Assembly: GCA_029866155.1 (NCBI GenBank)
Contig: JARWZW010000018.1
Span: 31,594 to 95,593 of the forward strand
Source: Caulobacter sp.
GTDB lineage: Bacteria > Pseudomonadota > Alphaproteobacteria > Caulobacterales > Caulobacteraceae
Reading direction: 5' to 3'
DNA: 64,000 nucleotides
Below are positions 6,200 to 45,851 of the stretch, in pieces. The notes below the pieces were generated by a model. It ran no database searches. It saw only the letters and a program-made list of their open reading frames with translations, and was not told the origin of the DNA. The translations under genes were made by a program, and so were the position numbers. How positions within the stretch are numbered: the stretch's first letter is position 1; each line of letters starts with the position of its first letter.

Positions 6200-8413
6200 A
6201 TGAGCGCCCCTGCCCCCTCCGAAAAAACCATCGCCCAGTCAGCTGCCGAGTTTGGCCTGAAGCCGGAAGAATACGCCGTCATTCTCGACCGCCTCGGCCG
6301 GGAGCCCAACCTCGTGGAGCTTGGCGTCTTTTCGGTCATGTGGTCAGAGCACTGCAGCTACAAGTCCAGCCGAAAGCACCTGGGCAAGTTCCCCACCACG
6401 GGCCCCCGCGTGATCTGCGGCCCGGGCGAGAACGCCGGGGTGATCGACATCGGCGATGGCCAGGCCTGCATCTTCAAGATGGAGAGCCACAACCACCCTA
6501 GCTACATCGAACCGTACCAGGGGGCCGCCACCGGCGTCGGCGGCATCATGCGGGACGTCTTCACCATGGGCGCCCGCCCTATCGCCCTGCTCAACGCCCT
6601 GCGGTTCGGCGATCCATCGCACCCCAAGACCCGTCGCCTTGTCGAGGGCGTGGTGGCCGGGATTGCCGGCTATGGTAATTGCGTGGGGGTTCCGACCGTC
6701 GCTGGTGAGACCAACTTTCATCGCGGCTATGACGGAAACATCCTCGTCAACGCCATGTGCGTGGGCCTGGCGGACGCAGACAAGATCTTCTACTCGGCCG
6801 CACCGGCTGCTGGCCTGCCCGTCGTCTATTTTGGCTCCAAGACAGGCCGCGACGGCATCCATGGTGCGACCATGGCCAGCGCCGAATTCGACGAAGACAG
6901 CGACGAAAAGCGGCCAACCGTCCAGGTGGGCGACCCCTTCGCCGAAAAGCTGCTTATCGAGGCCACCCTGGAACTGATGGCCACCGGCGCAGTTGCAGCC
7001 ATCCAAGACATGGGCGCGGCGGGCCTGACGTCATCTTCGGTCGAAATGGCCGGCAAGGGCAGCGTTGGTATCGAACTTGACCTCGACATGGTGCCGCAGC
7101 GCGAAGTGGGCATGACCGCTTACGAAATGATGTTGTCCGAAAGCCAGGAACGGATGCTGGCCATCCTCAAGCCCGGCCGGGAACGGGAAGGCCATGCCAT
7201 TTTCGAGAAGTGGGGCCTGGACGCCGCCATCATCGGCTGGACCACCGATACCGGCCATATTGTCCTGAAGCACAGGGGCGAGGTGGTTTGCGATCTTCCC
7301 CTGGCGCCCCTGTCCGACGACGCCCCGCTTTATGACCGTCCATGGACAGAGCCGGCAAAACACCCCCCGATCGACCCGGCCAGCATTCCGGCCCCGGAAG
7401 ACTGGGAGGCAGCCATGCTCAAACTCATGGCCTGCCCGGACGTAGCGTCCAAGCGCTGGCTCTGGGAACAGTATGACCGTCACGTCATGGCAGACACCCT
7501 GGAAGACAGCGCTACGGGCGCAGACGCCGGGATCGTGCGGGTCCATGGCACACGCAAGGCCCTGGCGGTAACCAGCGACTGCACGCCGCGCTACGTGCAG
7601 AACGATCCCTACGAGGGCGGCAAGCAGGCCGTCGCAGAGGCCTGGCGAAACCTGACAGCTGTCGGCGCCGAACCCATCGCCATCACTGACAACCTGAACT
7701 TCGGCAATCCCGAGCGGCCCGCCATCATGGGCCAGATTGTCCGGGCGATCGACGGCATGGCCGAGGCCTGCCGAGCCCTCGATTTCCCGGTCGTGAGCGG
7801 TAATGTCAGCCTCTACAACGAGACCAATGGCGTCGCGATCCCGCCGACCCCCACCGTCGGGGCCGTGGGCCTCTTGACCGAATACGGGCTAAGGGCGGAT
7901 TTTTCGAGCATGCGGGCAGGCGACAGTCTTGTGATGCTCGGCGAAACACATGGGGCGCTCGGCGCCAGCCTCTATCTTCGCGAAATGCTAGGCCGTGAGG
8001 ACGGCGCTCCGCCGCCGGTCGACCTGGCCCTGGAGCGCAAGACAGGCGACTTCCTGCGAAGCCTAATCAACAGCCGCCAGTGCAAGGTCGTGCATGACCT
8101 GTCCGACGGGGGGCTGGCCATTGGCGTCGCTGAAATGGTTCTGGCCAGCGGCGTGGGCATGACCCTGGATCTCGGCGACCAGGCCCCATCGCCCGCTGTG
8201 CTGTTCGGTGAAGATCAGGCCCGATACCTTGTGGCCACCGACCAGCCGGCGGAACTGCTGCAAGCCGCCCGGGCGGCTGGTGTTCCCGCCCAGGTCGTCG
8301 GCAAGGCCGGCGGTGACACCCTGCTCGCCCCGGGGCTGTTCGCCATTCCCCTCGACCGTCTGCGGGCCGCGCACGAGGGATGGCTTCCGGCCTTCATGGG
8401 ATCGACGACATGA
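6200..8413 (+). CDS. purL: Phosphoribosylformylglycinamidine synthase subunit PurL
   Basis: 737 aa; [53 protein letters not shown]. Confidence 0.98.
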
Positions 8414-8796
8414 AAATCACCCCCCTGCTGGGCGCTCTGGCCCTGATGGCCGGTTGCGCCTCCGCCTCAGAGACAGCCGACACCGGGGCGACTGCGGCGG
8501 GATGCGATGTCACGGTCGCCTTCGGCAGTTACGCCATGGGTATCGACGGACAGGCTGCTGAGGACGTCGAGGCCTATGTTTCAGGACATCCGGCCCTGGT
8601 GACCGCCAGCCAATGGACCAGATGGGGACGCGAAGGTGAAAAGACCGCCTGCCTGACGACAGCATCACCGCAAGCGATCCGGACCGTTTTCAAGGCCCTG
8701 CGGGCTCTCCTGCCCGACGTCGCCCGGCGGGGACCGGTGACGCTTGAATCCCGACTGGGGCAACGCTTCCAGTCGAAGTCGCCCCTCAATCATTGA
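8410..8796 (+). CDS. Small putative lipoprotein of unknown function
   Basis: ATG overlaps purL stop; [21 protein letters not shown] lipobox. Confidence 0.75.
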
Positions 8797-8858
8797 AGGG
8801 CTGCGCCGTTTCGCGTCAGCGGAGGGGAAGTACTTTTTATGGACCTTGAGAAAAGCCA

Positions 8859-8884
8859 GATCAGGCGCAACGGTGCGCCTGATC
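8859..8884. terminator. Perfect hairpin, first of a tandem pair
   Basis: GATCAGGCGCA-ACGG-TGCGCCTGATC, 11-bp perfect stem, between convergent genes. Confidence 0.7.
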
Positions 8885-8895
8885 CCGAGACCGCG

Positions 8896-8922
8896 CCGGC
8901 CTGATCGGCAGGATCAGGCCGG
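8896..8922. terminator. Perfect hairpin, second of a tandem pair
   Basis: CCGGCCTGATC-GGCAG-GATCAGGCCGG, 11-bp perfect stem. Confidence 0.7.
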
Positions 8923-8943
8923 GTTGGTCCGTTGCTTCGGTAA

Positions 8944-10797
8944 TCAGGCCAGCTCGACCTTGCGGTCAGCGCCGGCCGGGACACCCAGCCGCGACAGCAG
9001 AGCTTCGTACTGCGCCCAGAGCGCCGCCGGCATACGATCGCCAAACCGGTGGTAGAAGCCCGGAATCAAGGACGCCTCTTCCCGCCAGATGTCGGCGTCC
9101 ACCGTCAGCAGCAGGTTGAGCTTGGCGCTATCCATGCCAAGGCCATCAACATCCAGGGAGCCCGGCGCCGGCAGGCGGCCAATGGCGGTGTCGACAGCCT
9201 CGACCTCGCCCTCCAGGCGCTGGACGATCCACTTGAGCACCCGGCTGTTTTCGCCATAGCCCGGCCAGACAAACTTGCCGCCGTCCTTGCGGAACCAGTT
9301 CACGAAATAGATCCGCGGCAGCTTCTCGGGATCGGCCTTGCCGCCGACTTTCAGCCAGTGGGCGAAATAGTCACCCATGTTGTAGCCGCAGAAGGGCAGC
9401 ATGGCGAAGGGGTCGCGGCGCAACTCGCCAACCTTGTTCTCGGCGGCGGCGGTGCCTTCGGACGCCGTGTTGGAGGCCAGGAATACGCCATGCTCCCAAT
9501 CAAAGGCCTCGGTCACCAGCGGCACCGCGGTGGCCCGGCGGCCGCCGAACAGGATGGCGCTGATCGGCACGCCTGCGGGATCATCCCACTCGCTGGCGAT
9601 CACCGGGCATTGTTGGGCGGGAACCGTGAAGCGGGCGTTCGGATGGGCGGCCGGAGTTTCGCTGGCCGGAGTCCAGGGCTGACCGCGCCAATCGGTCAGG
9701 GACGCGGGAGCCTCATCGGTCAGGCCCTCCCACCAGACGTCGCCGTCCGGGGTCAGGGCGACATTGGTGAAGACACAGTTTTCATTCAGAGCGTCGATGG
9801 CGTTCTTGTTCGTGCCGATGCCGGTGCCCGGCGCGACGCCGAAGAAGCCAGATTCCGGATTGATGGCCCGAAGACGACCGTCGTCGCCGAACCGCATCCA
9901 GCAGATATCGTCGCCGATCGTCTCTGCCTTCCAGCCCGGAACGGTGGGCTGCAACATGGCCAGGTTGGTCTTGCCGCAGGCACTGGGGAAGGCCGCCGCT
10001 ACATACCGCACCTGGTTCTTGGGCGAGGTCAGCTTCAGGATCAGCATATGCTCGGCCAGCCAGCCCTCATCCCGAGCCATGACCGAAGCGATGCGCAGGG
10101 CGTAGCATTTCTTGCCAAGCAGGGCGTTGCCGCCGTAGCCCGACCCGTAGGACCAGATCTCGCGGCTCTCCGGGAAATGGACGATCCATTTTTCTTCGTT
10201 GCAGGGCCAGGGAACGTCCTTCTCCCCGTCGGCCAGCGGCGCACCCAGGGTGTGAACCGCAGGCACGAAGAACCCGTCGTCACCCATCATGTCCAGGGCC
10301 TGTTTGCCCATGCGGGTCATGACCCGCATCGAGATGGCGACATAGGCGCTGTCGGTGATCTCTACGCCGAGGGCGCTGATCGGCGAGCCGATGGGGCCCA
10401 TGCAGAACGGAACGACATACAGGGTGCGACCGCGCATGCAGCCGTCGAACAGTCCCTGCAGGCGATCGCGCATGGCGTCCGGCTCGGACCAGTTATTGGT
10501 CGGGCCCGCCTCGGCCTCTTCCTTCGAACAGATAAAGGTCCGGCTTTCAACCCGGGCGACATCCTTGGGGTCCGAAGCCGCATAAAAACTGTTGGGTCGC
10601 AATTTCGGATTGAGCCTCTGGAGGGTTCCGGAGGCGACCAGACGATCGGTGAGAAGCGTCCATTCCTCATCCGAGCCGTCGCACCAATAGACTGATGCTG
10701 GCTTGGTCAGCGCAGCGATTTCCTGAACCCACGCAATGAGCCTTGCGTGTTTGGTGGGGGCCTTGTCGAGACCCGGAATCGAAACTTCGCCGCCCAT
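8944..10797 (-). CDS. pckG: Phosphoenolpyruvate carboxykinase (GTP)
   Basis: 617 aa; [37 protein letters not shown]. Confidence 0.96.
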
Positions 10798-11084
10798 TAC
10801 CGACGCCCTCCAATACTGTGACTCCTGCGGTCAATATGACGCAGACCCGCAGGGCCAGCTTTGCGCGGCGTCCTGCCTAGCGCGTGGGACGTGTGGCGGG
10901 CAAGCCGAAAGGGTGCAAATTTGATGACGCACTGTGACGATTTGGCGCCAATGCGCCTGAATTTTAGGCGCCATATCGGGACCGGGCGCGGGCTGTTGCA
11001 GGGCAAGGCTTCCGATCAATCGTTCAACAGGTGGTTTGCCTCGACCCGCGGAGCGGCTACCTCTCCCCAAAAACGGGGGCGGAA

Positions 11085-13196
11085 ATGCGTTGGGTTGCGA
11101 TGGTTTTTACGGGACTGGCGACGCTGGTCCTGATCGCGGTGCTGGCTCTGCTCGGGCTCGACTGGTCCAACAGACCGCAACCCCTCGATCTGGCAGGCCT
11201 GATCGCCAGGGGAGATCGATACGACGTCCAGATACGCCGGGACCGATGGGGAGTTCCGCATGTTCTGGGCAAATCCAACGCGGATGCAGCCTTTGGCCTC
11301 GCCTTCGCCCATGCCGAGGATGACTTCGCCACAATCCAGGACGTCGCCCTGGCGACCCGAGGAACTCTTGCCGGAAGGCTTGGTCTCAAGGCTGCTGCCG
11401 GAGACTACATCGTCAACCTGCTCGAGGTCTGGCAGACCGTAGACGCCGGCTACGAAAGGGACCTGCCGGCTGATCTCCGGGCTGTTCTGGAGGCCTATGC
11501 AGACGGAATAAACGCCTATGCAGCCCGTCACCCCGAGGCTGTAGAGCCCGGACTACTCCCCATGACAGGAAAGGACATCGCCGCCGGCTTTGTCTTCAAG
11601 ACCCCGTTCTTTTATGGCCTCGACGCGGAACTGAAGCGGCTCAACAGCCTGCCGCCTGATCATCTGCCCAAGGGCTCCAACGGTGTGGCCGTGGCGCCCT
11701 TGAGGGCATCGGACGGCGCGACCCGGTTGCTGGTCAATTCCCACCAACCCTTTACCGGGCCGGTGGCCTGGTATGAGGCCGTGGTGGAGAGTGGCGAAGG
11801 CTGGCACGTCGCCGGCGGCTTCTTTCCGGGTTCCCCTTTCATGCTGCATGGCCACAATGCCAGCCTGGGCTGGGCCAATACCGTCAACAAGCCAGACCTG
11901 ATCGATACCTATCGCCTGGTCCTGAACCCGGAAAATTCCAATCAGTACCGACTGGACGGCAAATGGCGGGATTTCGAACGCCAGGAGGCCAAACTTCGCA
12001 TCAGGCTGTTTGGTCCCTTCCACTGGACCGTCAAGCGTCCGGTCCTGCGATCGGTTCATGGACCGGTGATGGAGACAAAGGCCGGCGCCTTCGCCCTGCG
12101 CTACGCAGGAATGGGAGAAGCCCGCCAACCCCTGCAGTATTGGCGCCTCAATCTCGCTCGAAATCTCGATGAGTGGCGGGCCGCCATGGCGCTGCAGGCC
12201 CTGCCCAGCATCAACTACATCTATGCCGACAACGCAGGGAACATCGGCTATGTCTATAACGGTCTGTTTCCGGACCGAAAAGTCTCCGGCATCGATTGGT
12301 CCGTTGTGCTTCCAGGCGATCGATCGGACCTGATCTGGCGATCCTACCTGCCGTTCGATCGAATCCCGCAGATCTGGAATCCCCGATCGGGACTGGTGTT
12401 CAACGCCAACAATACGCCGTTCCAGGCCACGGCGATTGGCGATGGCCTGAACCCTGACGCCTTTCCGGCGAGCATGGGCATCCAGACCGATATGACCAAT
12501 CGCGCCTGGCGTGAGATGGAGACCTTTGGAGAAGACCGAAAGATCAGCGCAGAGGCCTTTGTTCGCTACAAGTTCGACGTCACCTATAGCGCCCGGTCCC
12601 GGGTCGCCGAAATTGTCACCGAGGCGCTTCGCCTGGATCCCGGCAAAGACGCTGACCTGAAGGCGGCCCAGGACCTGTTGCGACGTTGGGACCGACGCGC
12701 GACCCTCGACAACCGTTCGGCCGCCCTGGCCATCCTGACAGCCTGGTCAATCGAGCGGGAACCGGAAGATGGCAAGCAAAGACCCACAGTATCAACAGCT
12801 CTGACCCAGACTATTCACCTCTTGAAATCGACCCATGGACGGATCGACCCTGCCTGGGGAGAGGTCAATCGCCTGAGACGCGGATCTGTGGACCTGCCTG
12901 TCGACGGAGGCCCCGACACTCTCCGCGCCATCTATGGCGAACCGGACAGCTCAGGCCGTTTGACGGCCGTCGGCGGCGACACCTTCATCATGGTGGTGAG
13001 TTGGGACCGGAATGGCGCCCTGTCCAGCCAGAGCGTACATCAGTTTGGTTCGGCGACCCGGGACGAACGATCCCGTCACTACGCCGATCAGGCCCCGCTC
13101 TTTGCAACTCATCGCTTCAAGCCTGTCCTGTTTACTGAAGCCCAGCTGGCGGGACAGATTGTCGAATCCTACAGGCCCGGAGGACGGCGCTCCTGA
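11085..13196 (+). CDS. Penicillin acylase family protein (possible acyl-homoserine lactone acylase)
   Basis: N-terminal TM; RDRWGVPHVLGKSNADAAFGLAFAHAEDDF; Ntn nucleophile region PKGSNGVAVAP. Confidence 0.92.
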   Translation: MRWVAMVFTGLATLVLIAVLALLGLDWSNRPQPLDLAGLIARGDRYDVQIRRDRWGVPHVLGKSNADAAFGLAFAHAEDDFATIQDVALATRGTLAGRLGLKAAAGDYIVNLLEVWQTVDAGYERDLPADLRAVLEAYADGINAYAARHPEAVEPGLLPMTGKDIAAGFVFKTPFFYGLDAELKRLNSLPPDHLPKGSNGVAVAPLRASDGATRLLVNSHQPFTGPVAWYEAVVESGEGWHVAGGFFPGSPFMLHGHNASLGWANTVNKPDLIDTYRLVLNPENSNQYRLDGKWRDFERQEAKLRIRLFGPFHWTVKRPVLRSVHGPVMETKAGAFALRYAGMGEARQPLQYWRLNLARNLDEWRAAMALQALPSINYIYADNAGNIGYVYNGLFPDRKVSGIDWSVVLPGDRSDLIWRSYLPFDRIPQIWNPRSGLVFNANNTPFQATAIGDGLNPDAFPASMGIQTDMTNRAWREMETFGEDRKISAEAFVRYKFDVTYSARSRVAEIVTEALRLDPGKDADLKAAQDLLRRWDRRATLDNRSAALAILTAWSIEREPEDGKQRPTVSTALTQTIHLLKSTHGRIDPAWGEVNRLRRGSVDLPVDGGPDTLRAIYGEPDSSGRLTAVGGDTFIMVVSWDRNGALSSQSVHQFGSATRDERSRHYADQAPLFATHRFKPVLFTEAQLAGQIVESYRPGGRRS

Positions 13197-41454: not shown

Positions 41455-42030
41455 TTAAGGAGATCGATATTTGCTGATTAACTCCTGCCGAAGGACTCTT
41501 CGGAGAAGCTTTCCAGTTTCATTGTAAGGTAATTCGAACCTGAAATCCCAAATCTGTGGCTTTTTCGTCGATCGCAATCGCGCCCTTACCCATTCCGATA
41601 ACTCTAAGACATCAGGAGCGGGATTTCGTGTAACAATAACCGCAGCAACCTGCTCACCCCACTGATCATCAGGAAGGCCGAATACGGCTACATCGATGAC
41701 AGAATTGTGGGTACGAAGGACATCTTCAATTTCACCCGGCGAGATATTCTCACCTCCTCGGACGATCACGTCATCGAGTCGCCCCTCAACGAATAGATAG
41801 CCTTCATCATCCAGAAATCCCGCGTCATTGGTCGCGAACCATCCGTCATCCTGGATGACCTTTCGGTGGAGATACTCTCCAGCCACCTGATCACCGCGGA
41901 TGTAAACCTCACCAGAACAAGCGTCATGGCGATCAGCATGACGATCGCCGTCCCCGCGGAAATGAGTCGAACATCGCTATGGAGTGCCCTTCTCCCGAGT
42001 GAGGGCCCGCCTTGATGTGCTGCCTGGCCT
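41455..42030 (-). pseudogene. Decayed AMP-binding acyl-CoA synthetase (C-terminal remnant with apparent frameshift)
   Basis: ORF 41455-41886 carries GWFATNDAGFLDDEGYLFVEGRLDDVIVRGGENISPGEIE...NETGKLLRRVL; similarity continues upstream of any start (SGEVYIRGDQVAGEY) and shifts frame to SLGRRALHSDVRLISAGTAI. Confidence 0.75.
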
Positions 42031-42257
42031 GCCGGCACGTCTCTGTGCTCCTGAAACATTCGTGACGTTGCCAGCGCTTGCGAGTTTGAGCCACCCCACG
42101 ATCATGGACCTGGCAGGGCGAACTCCGTGCACCAACCAGGGCTGTGTCGGCGCAGGTCCGACATACTCGACTTGACAGTACTTCGCGTCCCTCGCCTACT
42201 GATAGGGAAGAAGTCGCGCGCACCAATCGCGACCGTACGATCTTTGGGGAGAGCGCC

Positions 42258-43055
42258 GTGAGTATCATGAAGACAAGGTCGAAATGGCTTGCCACGACCG
42301 CGGCCGCCGCCGCCGCCGGGGTGATCAGTCTGTCTGTTGTCGGTCTGCCCGCTCAAGCCGCAAAGGCATCGAAGTCAGAACGGGTGATTTCGCCGGCGAG
42401 GGTCAACGCCCTCATGAGCTCTGCAAAGCTTAAAGTGCAGACCATGCAGCGCCGTGGAGACACCTACGTGGTCAAGGCCAAAGGCCTGAGTGGCAATGAA
42501 GTCGTTGTGGTGGTTGACGGCCGCAAGGGGGACATTATCGGTCTGGATGTCGTCAAATGGGCGCCCGGAGCCAAGCGCATCAAGCGCGGATCGCGCGGCA
42601 AGGCCTTCACCGGAGATGTGTACGAATTTGGCGTGACCCTGACTCTTGCGGCGCTCGTCGGATGGACCCCGTACGACAGTCGTGCCTGGTCTTCGACGAG
42701 CGTTGAATGGATCGAGGTCACCTATGAAACCGTTACCTTTACAGAGGTAACCTATGAAACAACGATTATCGAAGAGTCTTACGAGACTTACTCTGAGGAG
42801 TATTCTGAATCTTACGGCGTTGACCTGGAAGAAACTGTGACGACCTATGAGGAAACGGAAACCTCATTCGAAGAGAGCATGCAGGTCGAAGAAGCGATGG
42901 ATGACGACAGCTCTGATCAGGAAGATTCGATGGAATCTTCGTCTTCGGAAAATGATGAGGCGGACGAGGAGGACGAAGAGGACGAGCAGGACGACTCTTC
43001 GGCTGAAGAGACCGATGAGCCGGACCACGCAACCCAGTCGGCACAGGCGGCGTGA
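42258..43055 (+). CDS. Exported PepSY-like protein with long acidic Glu/Thr/Tyr/Ser-rich C-terminal tail
   Basis: GGGGAG RBS 6 nt before GTG 42258; signal peptide; PepSY-like RVNALMSSAKLKVQTMQRRGDTYVVKAKGLSGNEVVVVVDGRKGDIIGL; acidic tail. Confidence 0.8.
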   Translation: MSIMKTRSKWLATTAAAAAAGVISLSVVGLPAQAAKASKSERVISPARVNALMSSAKLKVQTMQRRGDTYVVKAKGLSGNEVVVVVDGRKGDIIGLDVVKWAPGAKRIKRGSRGKAFTGDVYEFGVTLTLAALVGWTPYDSRAWSSTSVEWIEVTYETVTFTEVTYETTIIEESYETYSEEYSESYGVDLEETVTTYEETETSFEESMQVEEAMDDDSSDQEDSMESSSSENDEADEEDEEDEQDDSSAEETDEPDHATQSAQAA

Positions 43056-43177: not shown

Positions 43178-43253
43178 TCCTCGGTAGCTCAGTTGGTAGA
43201 GCAGTCGGCTGTTAACCGACTTGTCGCAGGTTCGAGTCCTGCCCGGGGAGCCA
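43178..43253 (+). tRNA. tRNA-Asn (GTT), CCA encoded
   Basis: TCCTCGGTAGCTCAGTTGGTAGAGCAGTCGGCTGTTAACCGACTTGTCGCAGGTTCGAGTCCTGCCCGGGGAGCCA. Confidence 0.97.
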
Positions 43254-44080: not shown

Positions 44081-45031
44081 ATGCCGATCCTGTCGATCCG
44101 CCATCTGACCCGATACCGGTACCGAAATCCGGTTACCCTGGGAGAACATCGTATGATGTTTCGTCCCAGGGAAAGCTACGACCAGAAACTGTTGGCTTGC
44201 GACCTGCTGATTTCACCCGAACCCAGCCGCCAGCATTATGTACAGGACGTGTTCGGAAACAGCGTCGGGATCGTCAATTTCTCTGGCCCGACCCGGGAGC
44301 TGGTCTTCGACAGCCGGGTCCGGCTCGATCACACGCCACTGCCCGCCTTCGCCGATCTAGACGGAGAGATAGAGGTCTATACGGGCGCCATGCCCTTCGA
44401 CTACAGCGCAGAGGACCTGCCCGACCTGCAGTCGTCCCTGCATCGTCCCTACTCGGATCCGGGAGATCTCGTTTCCCGCTGGGCCCGACGCTTCGTGCGC
44501 ACATCCGGGAAAACACCGCTTCAAAGCCTGCTCAGCGACATGACCCAGGCGATCTATGCCGAGTTTCGCTACGGCGCCCGCCTGGAAATAGGCACTCAGA
44601 CTCCCGTACAGACCCTAAGTCTCGGAACCGGCAGCTGCCGAGACTATGCGGTGCTGATGATGGACGCGGTCCGAAGTCTGGGCCTCGCTGCACGATTTGT
44701 GTCCGGGTATATCTACAGTCCCTATTCCGGCCCCTCTACGGTGGGCCGGGTCGGGGGCGGTCATACGCATGCCTGGGTGCGGGTCTATCTTCCGGCCTGC
44801 GGATGGATCGAGTTTGATCCGACCAACGGGATCGTCGGCAATGCTGACCTGGTGCGGGTCGCAGTCGCCCGGGACCCGAGGCAGGCTGTGCCCCTGCATG
44901 GAACCTGGGACGGAGAGGCCAGCGATTTCGCCGGAATGGACGTCGAGGTCCATGTGACCACCGAAACCGATGATCTCCGGTCGAGGCAACCCTCAATCGG
45001 CGTTTGGCCAGATCGCCTGGAAGGGGTATGA
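44081..45031 (+). CDS. Transglutaminase-like cysteine peptidase family protein
   Basis: SIRHLTRYRYRNPVTLGEHRMMFRPR; catalytic-type GSCRDYAVLMM, GGHTHAWVRVYLP, FDPTNG. Confidence 0.94.
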   Translation: MPILSIRHLTRYRYRNPVTLGEHRMMFRPRESYDQKLLACDLLISPEPSRQHYVQDVFGNSVGIVNFSGPTRELVFDSRVRLDHTPLPAFADLDGEIEVYTGAMPFDYSAEDLPDLQSSLHRPYSDPGDLVSRWARRFVRTSGKTPLQSLLSDMTQAIYAEFRYGARLEIGTQTPVQTLSLGTGSCRDYAVLMMDAVRSLGLAARFVSGYIYSPYSGPSTVGRVGGGHTHAWVRVYLPACGWIEFDPTNGIVGNADLVRVAVARDPRQAVPLHGTWDGEASDFAGMDVEVHVTTETDDLRSRQPSIGVWPDRLEGV

Positions 45032-45038
45032 GCAGCCT

Positions 45039-45851
45039 ATGCGCATAAAGACCGGGTTCGAGATCACCTACGAATGTCCGGTCGACACGCCGATGCTGTT
45101 GAGCCTAAGCGTGCACCCCTCCAGACGAGATGTCCTGGAAACCCCGGAGTGGCTTCAGACCAATCCCATGGTCCCGGTTCGGCAGTATCTGGATGGCTTC
45201 GGCAATATCTGCAGCCGGGTCCTGGCGCCGGCAGGTCGTTTCACTCTTTCATCGGATTTCATCGTTCGCGACAGCGGTCTGGTCGATGACTATGCCCCCG
45301 AGGCCCAGCAGATTGCCGTGCAGGACCTGCCCGACGAGGCTTTGGTCTATCTGCTCGGCAGCCGCTATTGCGAAACTGACCGGATGAGCAATCTGGCCTG
45401 GAATCTTTTCCAGCAAACGCCGCCTGGCTGGGCCCGGGTTCAGGCCATCTGTGACTATGTCCATAACCACATCAGCTTCGACTATCAGAAGGCCAGACCG
45501 ACAAAGAGCGCCCACGACGCCCACGAAGAACGATACGGGGTCTGTCGCGATTACGCGCACCTGGCCGTGACCCTTTGCCGGTGCATGAATATCCCGGCGC
45601 GCTACTGCACTGGATATCTGGGCGACATCGGCGTTCCCCTCCTCTTGCCGATGGATTTCAGCGCCTGGTTCGAGGTGTATCTGGGCGATCGCTGGTACGT
45701 TTTTGATGCCCGGAACAACCGCCCCCGCTGCGCCCGGGTGCTCATCGCCCGGGGCCGCGACGCCACCGATGTGGCCATCGCCAATACCTTCGGCTCGGCG
45801 CTGCTGGTCGACTTCAAGGTCGTCAGCGAATTGATCCCCGAAACGGCGTGA
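45039..45851 (+). CDS. Transglutaminase-like family protein (second paralogue)
   Basis: EERYGVCRDYAHLAVTLCRCMNIPARYCTGYLGDIG...MDFSAWFEVYLGDRWYVFDARNNRPR. Confidence 0.94.
   Translation: MRIKTGFEITYECPVDTPMLLSLSVHPSRRDVLETPEWLQTNPMVPVRQYLDGFGNICSRVLAPAGRFTLSSDFIVRDSGLVDDYAPEAQQIAVQDLPDEALVYLLGSRYCETDRMSNLAWNLFQQTPPGWARVQAICDYVHNHISFDYQKARPTKSAHDAHEERYGVCRDYAHLAVTLCRCMNIPARYCTGYLGDIGVPLLLPMDFSAWFEVYLGDRWYVFDARNNRPRCARVLIARGRDATDVAIANTFGSALLVDFKVVSELIPETA

Follow-up and report, generated by a model that had tools for sequence, protein, structure and literature searches.

Exported PepSY proteins that bind metals are among the closest described systems to the protein considered here. UipA carries tandem PepSY domains of which a negatively charged face binds uranyl (PMC8963506), and LanPepSY binds up to four Ln3+ ions through Glu and Asp residues of its two PepSY domains (PMC11845868; PMC12482762). 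LanP, a 19 kDa protein, is linked to lanthanide-dependent methylotrophy in Gammaproteobacteria (PMC12482762, PMC11845868). A regulatory role is known for DbfQ of Vibrio cholerae, a PepSY protein of 135 aa that controls the sensor kinase encoded beside it, and PepSY genes occur near two-component systems more than 60-fold more often than expected by chance (PMC12714742). In Caulobacter, PepSY-family membrane proteins with another layout serve iron uptake (PMC13001220, PMC12004947).

The gene described here was found in a stretch of 64,000 nucleotides from a Caulobacter sp., referred to as the window, and occurs as a single copy in its genome. It encodes an exported protein in which a small PepSY-like head is followed by a strongly acidic tail (Table 1). 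The open reading frame is a real gene. A good ribosome-binding site and the GTG start had been remarked on in an earlier note made from the letters of this DNA, and both are borne out: the orthologue of a congener starts with ATG at an equal distance from an identical GGGGAG, which favours the GTG. An ATG at 42267 is a possible alternative start.

Table 1. Features of the gene and its downstream neighbour. Coordinates are those of the window; omega values refer to the comparison with the congeneric orthologue L003 and are simple Nei-Gojobori estimates at a high tail dS of 1.3–1.6.
Feature	Position	Strand	Remarks
Ribosome-binding site GGGGAG	42246..42251	+	6 nt 5' of GTG; also in congener L003
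Complete ORF, 265 aa, stop included	42258..43055	+	GTG start; orthologues exist
Sec signal peptide, residues 1–35	42258..42362	+	cleavage near AQA-A/QAA-K; read from the sequence
Basic PepSY-like head, residues about 36–135	42363..42662	+	helix plus four strands
Tail part 1, residues 149–203, V/T/Y/E repeat (EVTYET)	42702..42866	+	omega 0.046 (95% CI 0.009–0.138)
Tail part 2, residues 204–265, D/E/S polyanion	42867..43052	+	omega 0.149 (95% CI 0.057–0.371) over residues 204–256
tRNA-Asn(gtt), neighbour, not part of the function	43178..43253	+	directly downstream; likewise in congener L003

Homologues with the acidic tail exist and are rare. Clear orthologues (E <= 5e-4) were present in 5/392 genomes of the taxonomic family, spread over three genera. 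The one from the congener (G017/L003, contig CAMAVA010000137.1, genus g1) is 78% identical over the whole protein, the one from a second genus (G067/L006) shows 63% identity over the head, and the two from a third genus, g13 (G766/L031 and G754/L032), are about 33–34% identical overall. A search of 75 genomes of the window's genus returned the gene in just two, the window genome and the congener. At E <= 0.001, a class sample of 387 genomes and an order sample of 299 genomes gave no match apart from the own genome, and the phages, plasmids and viral contigs searched contained no match either. Two weak matches were set aside: the one in G022 is a chance frame, and the one in G010 reached only E 0.01 and is not counted as an orthologue.

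The signal sequence at the N-terminus is of the Sec type and agrees with the previously suggested end of the signal peptide near PAQAAKA. No clear hydrophobic span could be recognised by reading in the window protein after the signal peptide. The window protein is not expected to be a lipoprotein since it contains no Cys; both g13 orthologues have a lipobox (IAGC or IGGC) with Cys 21. Judged by these signals, anchoring differs between the genera. An extracytoplasmic location, as in PepSY proteins, is indicated by the signal sequence in one case and the lipobox in the other.

The tail of about 115 residues contains 45–46 Asp and Glu, seven Tyr and no Lys or Arg, which gives a net charge of −46. 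Among the 281 frames with a length of 100 aa or more in the six-frame translation of the window, it provides the most acidic stretch of 100 aa (net −44), with the runner-up at −22. The acidic tail of the earlier note is thereby confirmed, although as printed there it was incomplete and lacked the final residues SAQAA. The EVTYET repeat is also real and corresponds at the DNA level to a 17-nt direct repeat with a spacing of 30. The tail lacks an EF-hand and any other defined metal motif. The base composition of the tail had been described as less GC-rich than that of its neighbours. This is genuine (GC 0.51), but it is mostly a result of amino acid composition, with a GC3 that is mildly low too (0.59, against 0.71 in the head and 0.69–0.78 in neighbouring genes).

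Acidic low-complexity tails are customarily dismissed as drift. Here, the frame is intact and the acidic tail is present in all five homologues (five species, three genera), with net charges of −46, −46, −66, −54 and −51; homologues devoid of the tail, which the earlier note had named as an argument for drift, were not among them. The G067 protein has three EVTYE motifs followed by a D/G polyanion (net −66), and the tails of the g13 pair are rich in Tyr and Trp (the last two values). Between the window protein and L003, omega of the head is 0.084, and the tail parts gave the values in Table 1. The g13 pair, which is independent of the former, gave 0.049 for the first and 0.29 for the second half of the tail, by the same simple method. 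By these estimates, purifying selection acts on the tail in each of two independent species pairs, and the tail is evidently functional. The idea that the gene is decaying or non-functional, with a tail that arose by compositional drift, could draw on the low GC of the tail and on a decayed, low-GC acyl-CoA ligase fragment that lies just upstream. It is nevertheless already contradicted by the selection on both head and tail and by the recurrence of the same design in three genera, and we give it hardly any credence.

The two parts of the tail appear to be conserved in different ways. In the D/E/S part, 27 acidic sites are retained between the window protein and L003, eight of them through D/E exchange, with two lost and three gained. 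That Asp and Glu replace each other at constant net charge suggests that it is charge, and not an exact motif, that is selected for in the distal tail. In the proximal tail, the arrangement of Tyr and Glu is kept at the level of individual residues. This difference is relevant for the possibility that the protein is an envelope polyelectrolyte or an adhesion or stress protein, the tail of which binds cationic surfaces or peptides or hydrates exopolymer, with ion binding being incidental. Such a role would be in agreement with a distal tail that conserves only charge and aromatic content, with the existence of lipid-anchored forms and with the rare, accessory distribution. However, a generic polyelectrolyte would not need the exact proximal pattern, and no partner genes for secretion or surface display were found nearby. 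We regard this role as unlikely.

The relationship of the head to PepSY is less straightforward. The mature head is basic, with a pI of 10.2 and a charge of +14 for the stretch that reaches from the N-terminus to YEFG.TL. It has the conserved pattern GxTYVVxAxGxxGNxxxxVxDGxxGxIxGxDVxxWAPGAKRxxxGSRGxxFxxDxYEFG. Searches with the head gave no significant match in Pfam, NCBIfam, PHROG or the PDB sequences. Tested against PF03413 and PF13670, for which the gathering cut-offs are 24 and 24.3 bits, the window protein remained unmatched, and relatives gave only signals below the cut-off: 12.3 bits for L006 (PepSY) and 14.4 bits for L032 (PepSY_2). Matches to NCBIfam collagen-like adhesins are a low-complexity effect of a single member and were disregarded.

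An AlphaFold2 model from an alignment of two sequences predicts a helix followed by four strands (pLDDT 70–84), and leaves the C-terminal part of the head and the tail unpredicted (pLDDT below 50). With this head model, Foldseek found YpmB as the best PDB match at a probability of 0.99, but with an E-value of 0.07 and a TM score of 0.41. CD1622, YpeB and FoxB ranked lower, and among viral proteins the top match in fold is one from a phage that is named PepSY. Comparable scores were reached by LolA and other small sheets, so that the fold evidence taken alone is suggestive. A profile of the head, run against the 387 class genomes, had among its best outside matches L066 (E 0.001) and L068 (E 0.005), both of which are above the Pfam cut-off for PepSY, and L067, which matches PepSY_2 at E 2e-4; weaker outside matches are mixed and include noise. 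By profile, the head is thus detectably related to accepted PepSY proteins. With PepSY and PepSY_2 the head shares export, a predicted helix with antiparallel strands and a core of the form G-x-Y-x-V-x-A ... V-x-V-D-x-x-x-G-x-I. It differs in being basic and a single domain, and in carrying the long C-terminal extension WAPGAKR...YEFG and the acidic tail. Of the earlier assignment as PepSY-like, the secondary structure, fold and profile evidence stands and a significant Pfam match does not; the head is best called PepSY-like rather than a PepSY member, and a PepSY fold is supported but not proven.

Observations were also made on other PepSY-like proteins. L066 (973–1854) and L068 (1336–2220) are exported and apparently consist of three tandem PepSY-like repeats, of which two units match PepSY or PepSY_2. 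L067 and L070, the latter without a Pfam match, are exported proteins with the layout of the window protein, in which a single PepSY-like domain is followed by a long low-complexity tail, but of a different chemistry, rich in Pro and Ala.

The classical idea for a PepSY protein is that of a peptidase inhibitor or a propeptide-like chaperone, in keeping with the description of PF03413 and PF13670 as peptidase propeptide/YPEB domains. PepSY peptidase propeptides are not known to carry an acidic tail, and a peptidase gene was not linked consistently across the neighbourhoods. We consider this function very improbable.

Comparison of the neighbourhoods shows that the gene occupies three unrelated chromosomal sites in the three genera, one of which adjoins a tRNA. 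The window and L003 have the gene and the downstream tRNA-Asn in common and differ on the upstream side, and the neighbourhood in G067 is different from that of the window. In g13 the gene is flanked on one side by a divergent gene that is decarboxylase-like, and on the other by phnC-phnD-phnE with a phosphate-binding-protein-like gene. In L034 this cluster occupies 7621–12484, directly downstream of the lipoprotein form, with the phosphate-binding-protein-like gene (PF12849) following phnC-phnD-phnE. Of the 30 g13 loci that were read, 12 besides that of G766 have the decarboxylase adjoining phnC with a gap of 355–469 bp and the gene absent. With one site unoccupied in at least twelve g13 congeners, the gene is a patchy accessory gene, and it behaves as one that would be gained or lost singly. 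A joint operon role with phosphonate or phosphate uptake in g13 was rejected because phnC is present in 60/61 g13 genomes, including those with the twelve loci from which the gene is absent. Three further explanations of its presence were discarded. The ORFs that flank the copies included no recognisable integrase or IS gene, which together with the absence of phage, plasmid and viral matches speaks against an origin from a mobile element or phage; a recent tRNA-Asn island does not fit three different sites of which just one is at a tRNA; and anti-phage defence found no PADLOC match.

The neighbourhoods also bear on a role as a protein-binding regulator. In this scenario, the head would bind a sensor kinase or some other protein of the envelope, as in DbfQ, and the tail would tune the interaction or sense cations. 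Control of two-component systems by small exported PepSY proteins has a precedent (PMC12714742), and no folded part is better conserved than the head, with an omega of 0.07–0.08. DbfQ resembles the window protein as a small, Sec-exported protein with a single PepSY domain; at 135 aa it is too short for such a tail, and its gene adjoins that of its sensor kinase, whereas no such kinase is linked to the window-type gene. Neither a histidine kinase nor a response regulator was found when near neighbours were tested in the window or read in L034 and L033, and G067 has only a sigma-54 response regulator a few genes off. An accessory role in a two-component system is not supported by synteny, and a regulator of this kind seems doubtful to us.

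In view of the above, the explanation to which we tentatively give most weight, at somewhat less than an even chance, is that the basic head and polyanionic tail form an exported cation- or metal-binding and buffering polymer of the envelope. The protein would be exported by Sec, remain unanchored in the periplasm of the window's genus and be held by a lipid anchor in another genus. Its small basic head (+14) would bear a disordered, Tyr-rich tail of 115–175 residues with a charge of −46 to −66, and this tail would most likely act as a cation (metal) buffer of high capacity and low specificity. The head could position the tail on anionic surfaces of the envelope. Alternatively, head and tail of the same molecule could stay folded together for as long as no cations compete. 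Among the functions guessed at earlier (cation chelation, adhesion, phospho-acceptor), cation or metal binding has the best precedent, in UipA and LanPepSY, and nothing was found in favour of a role as phospho-acceptor or protease inhibitor.

Our best guess by analogy is that the protein works like these metal-binding PepSY proteins without being one. UipA is similar in being an exported PepSY-type protein with acidic residues and an accessory distribution, but its PepSY domains are in tandem, a transmembrane segment is present and the negative face lies on the folded part (PMC8963506), whereas the window protein has one PepSY-like unit, a basic head and its acidic residues in a disordered tail. 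LanPepSY and LanP of Methylobacillus flagellatus are comparable as small periplasmic PepSY proteins with Glu and Asp as proposed metal ligands; LanPepSY has two PepSY domains to the single PepSY-like unit of the window protein. Several observations count against a cation buffer. No metal-related gene is linked consistently in the three neighbourhoods of the three genera, the transporter genes beside the g13 copies also occur where the gene is absent, and the basic head is unlike the binding face of UipA. Moreover, the Pro/Ala tails on other alphaproteobacterial PepSY-like proteins indicate that a low-complexity tail on such a head need not bind metal.

A bolder version of the cation buffer would be a new envelope family in which the PepSY-like head presents a conserved Tyr-carboxylate repeat and polyanion as a metal buffer. 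It would possibly be selective for hard cations (Fe3+, lanthanides, uranyl), with binding in the disordered tail unlike in UipA and LanP, and would have been dispersed among bacteria of the Caulobacteraceae type as one mobile gene. We consider this proposal as a whole unlikely. What the orthologues do form is a small, patchy subfamily for which we found no description, with a PepSY-plus-tail design and measurable selection on a low-complexity acidic tail, apparently for charge in the distal part and for an exact Tyr/Glu pattern in the proximal part. UipA and LanPepSY have raised the question whether the function of a PepSY-type domain can be to carry a tail that binds metal or acts as a polyelectrolyte, and the subfamily is a compact case on which to test it. 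If the protein does bind hard cations, it could be of interest for metal recovery.

Another genus of the family has a protein of partly similar layout, L007 (1318–1770), with a signal peptide, one PepSY_2-like domain (E 1.9e-4) and an acidic C-terminal run. Its tail is short, of mixed R/D composition and ends in D8 without a Tyr/Glu repeat, and it does not detectably belong to the same subfamily. Just upstream of the gene in the window, at 41455–41950 on the minus strand, lies what is left of an acyl-CoA ligase, namely its C-terminal domain (AMP-binding_C, E 7e-13). The N-terminal part is missing and the GC3 is 0.47, against 0.69–0.78 in neighbouring genes; the fragment is a decayed remnant, probably of foreign origin. 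On the other side, two adjoining genes at 44123–45851 share a strand and code for transglutaminase-like proteins (PF01841, the first also PF08379), the longest frames of which overlap at 44970–45031.
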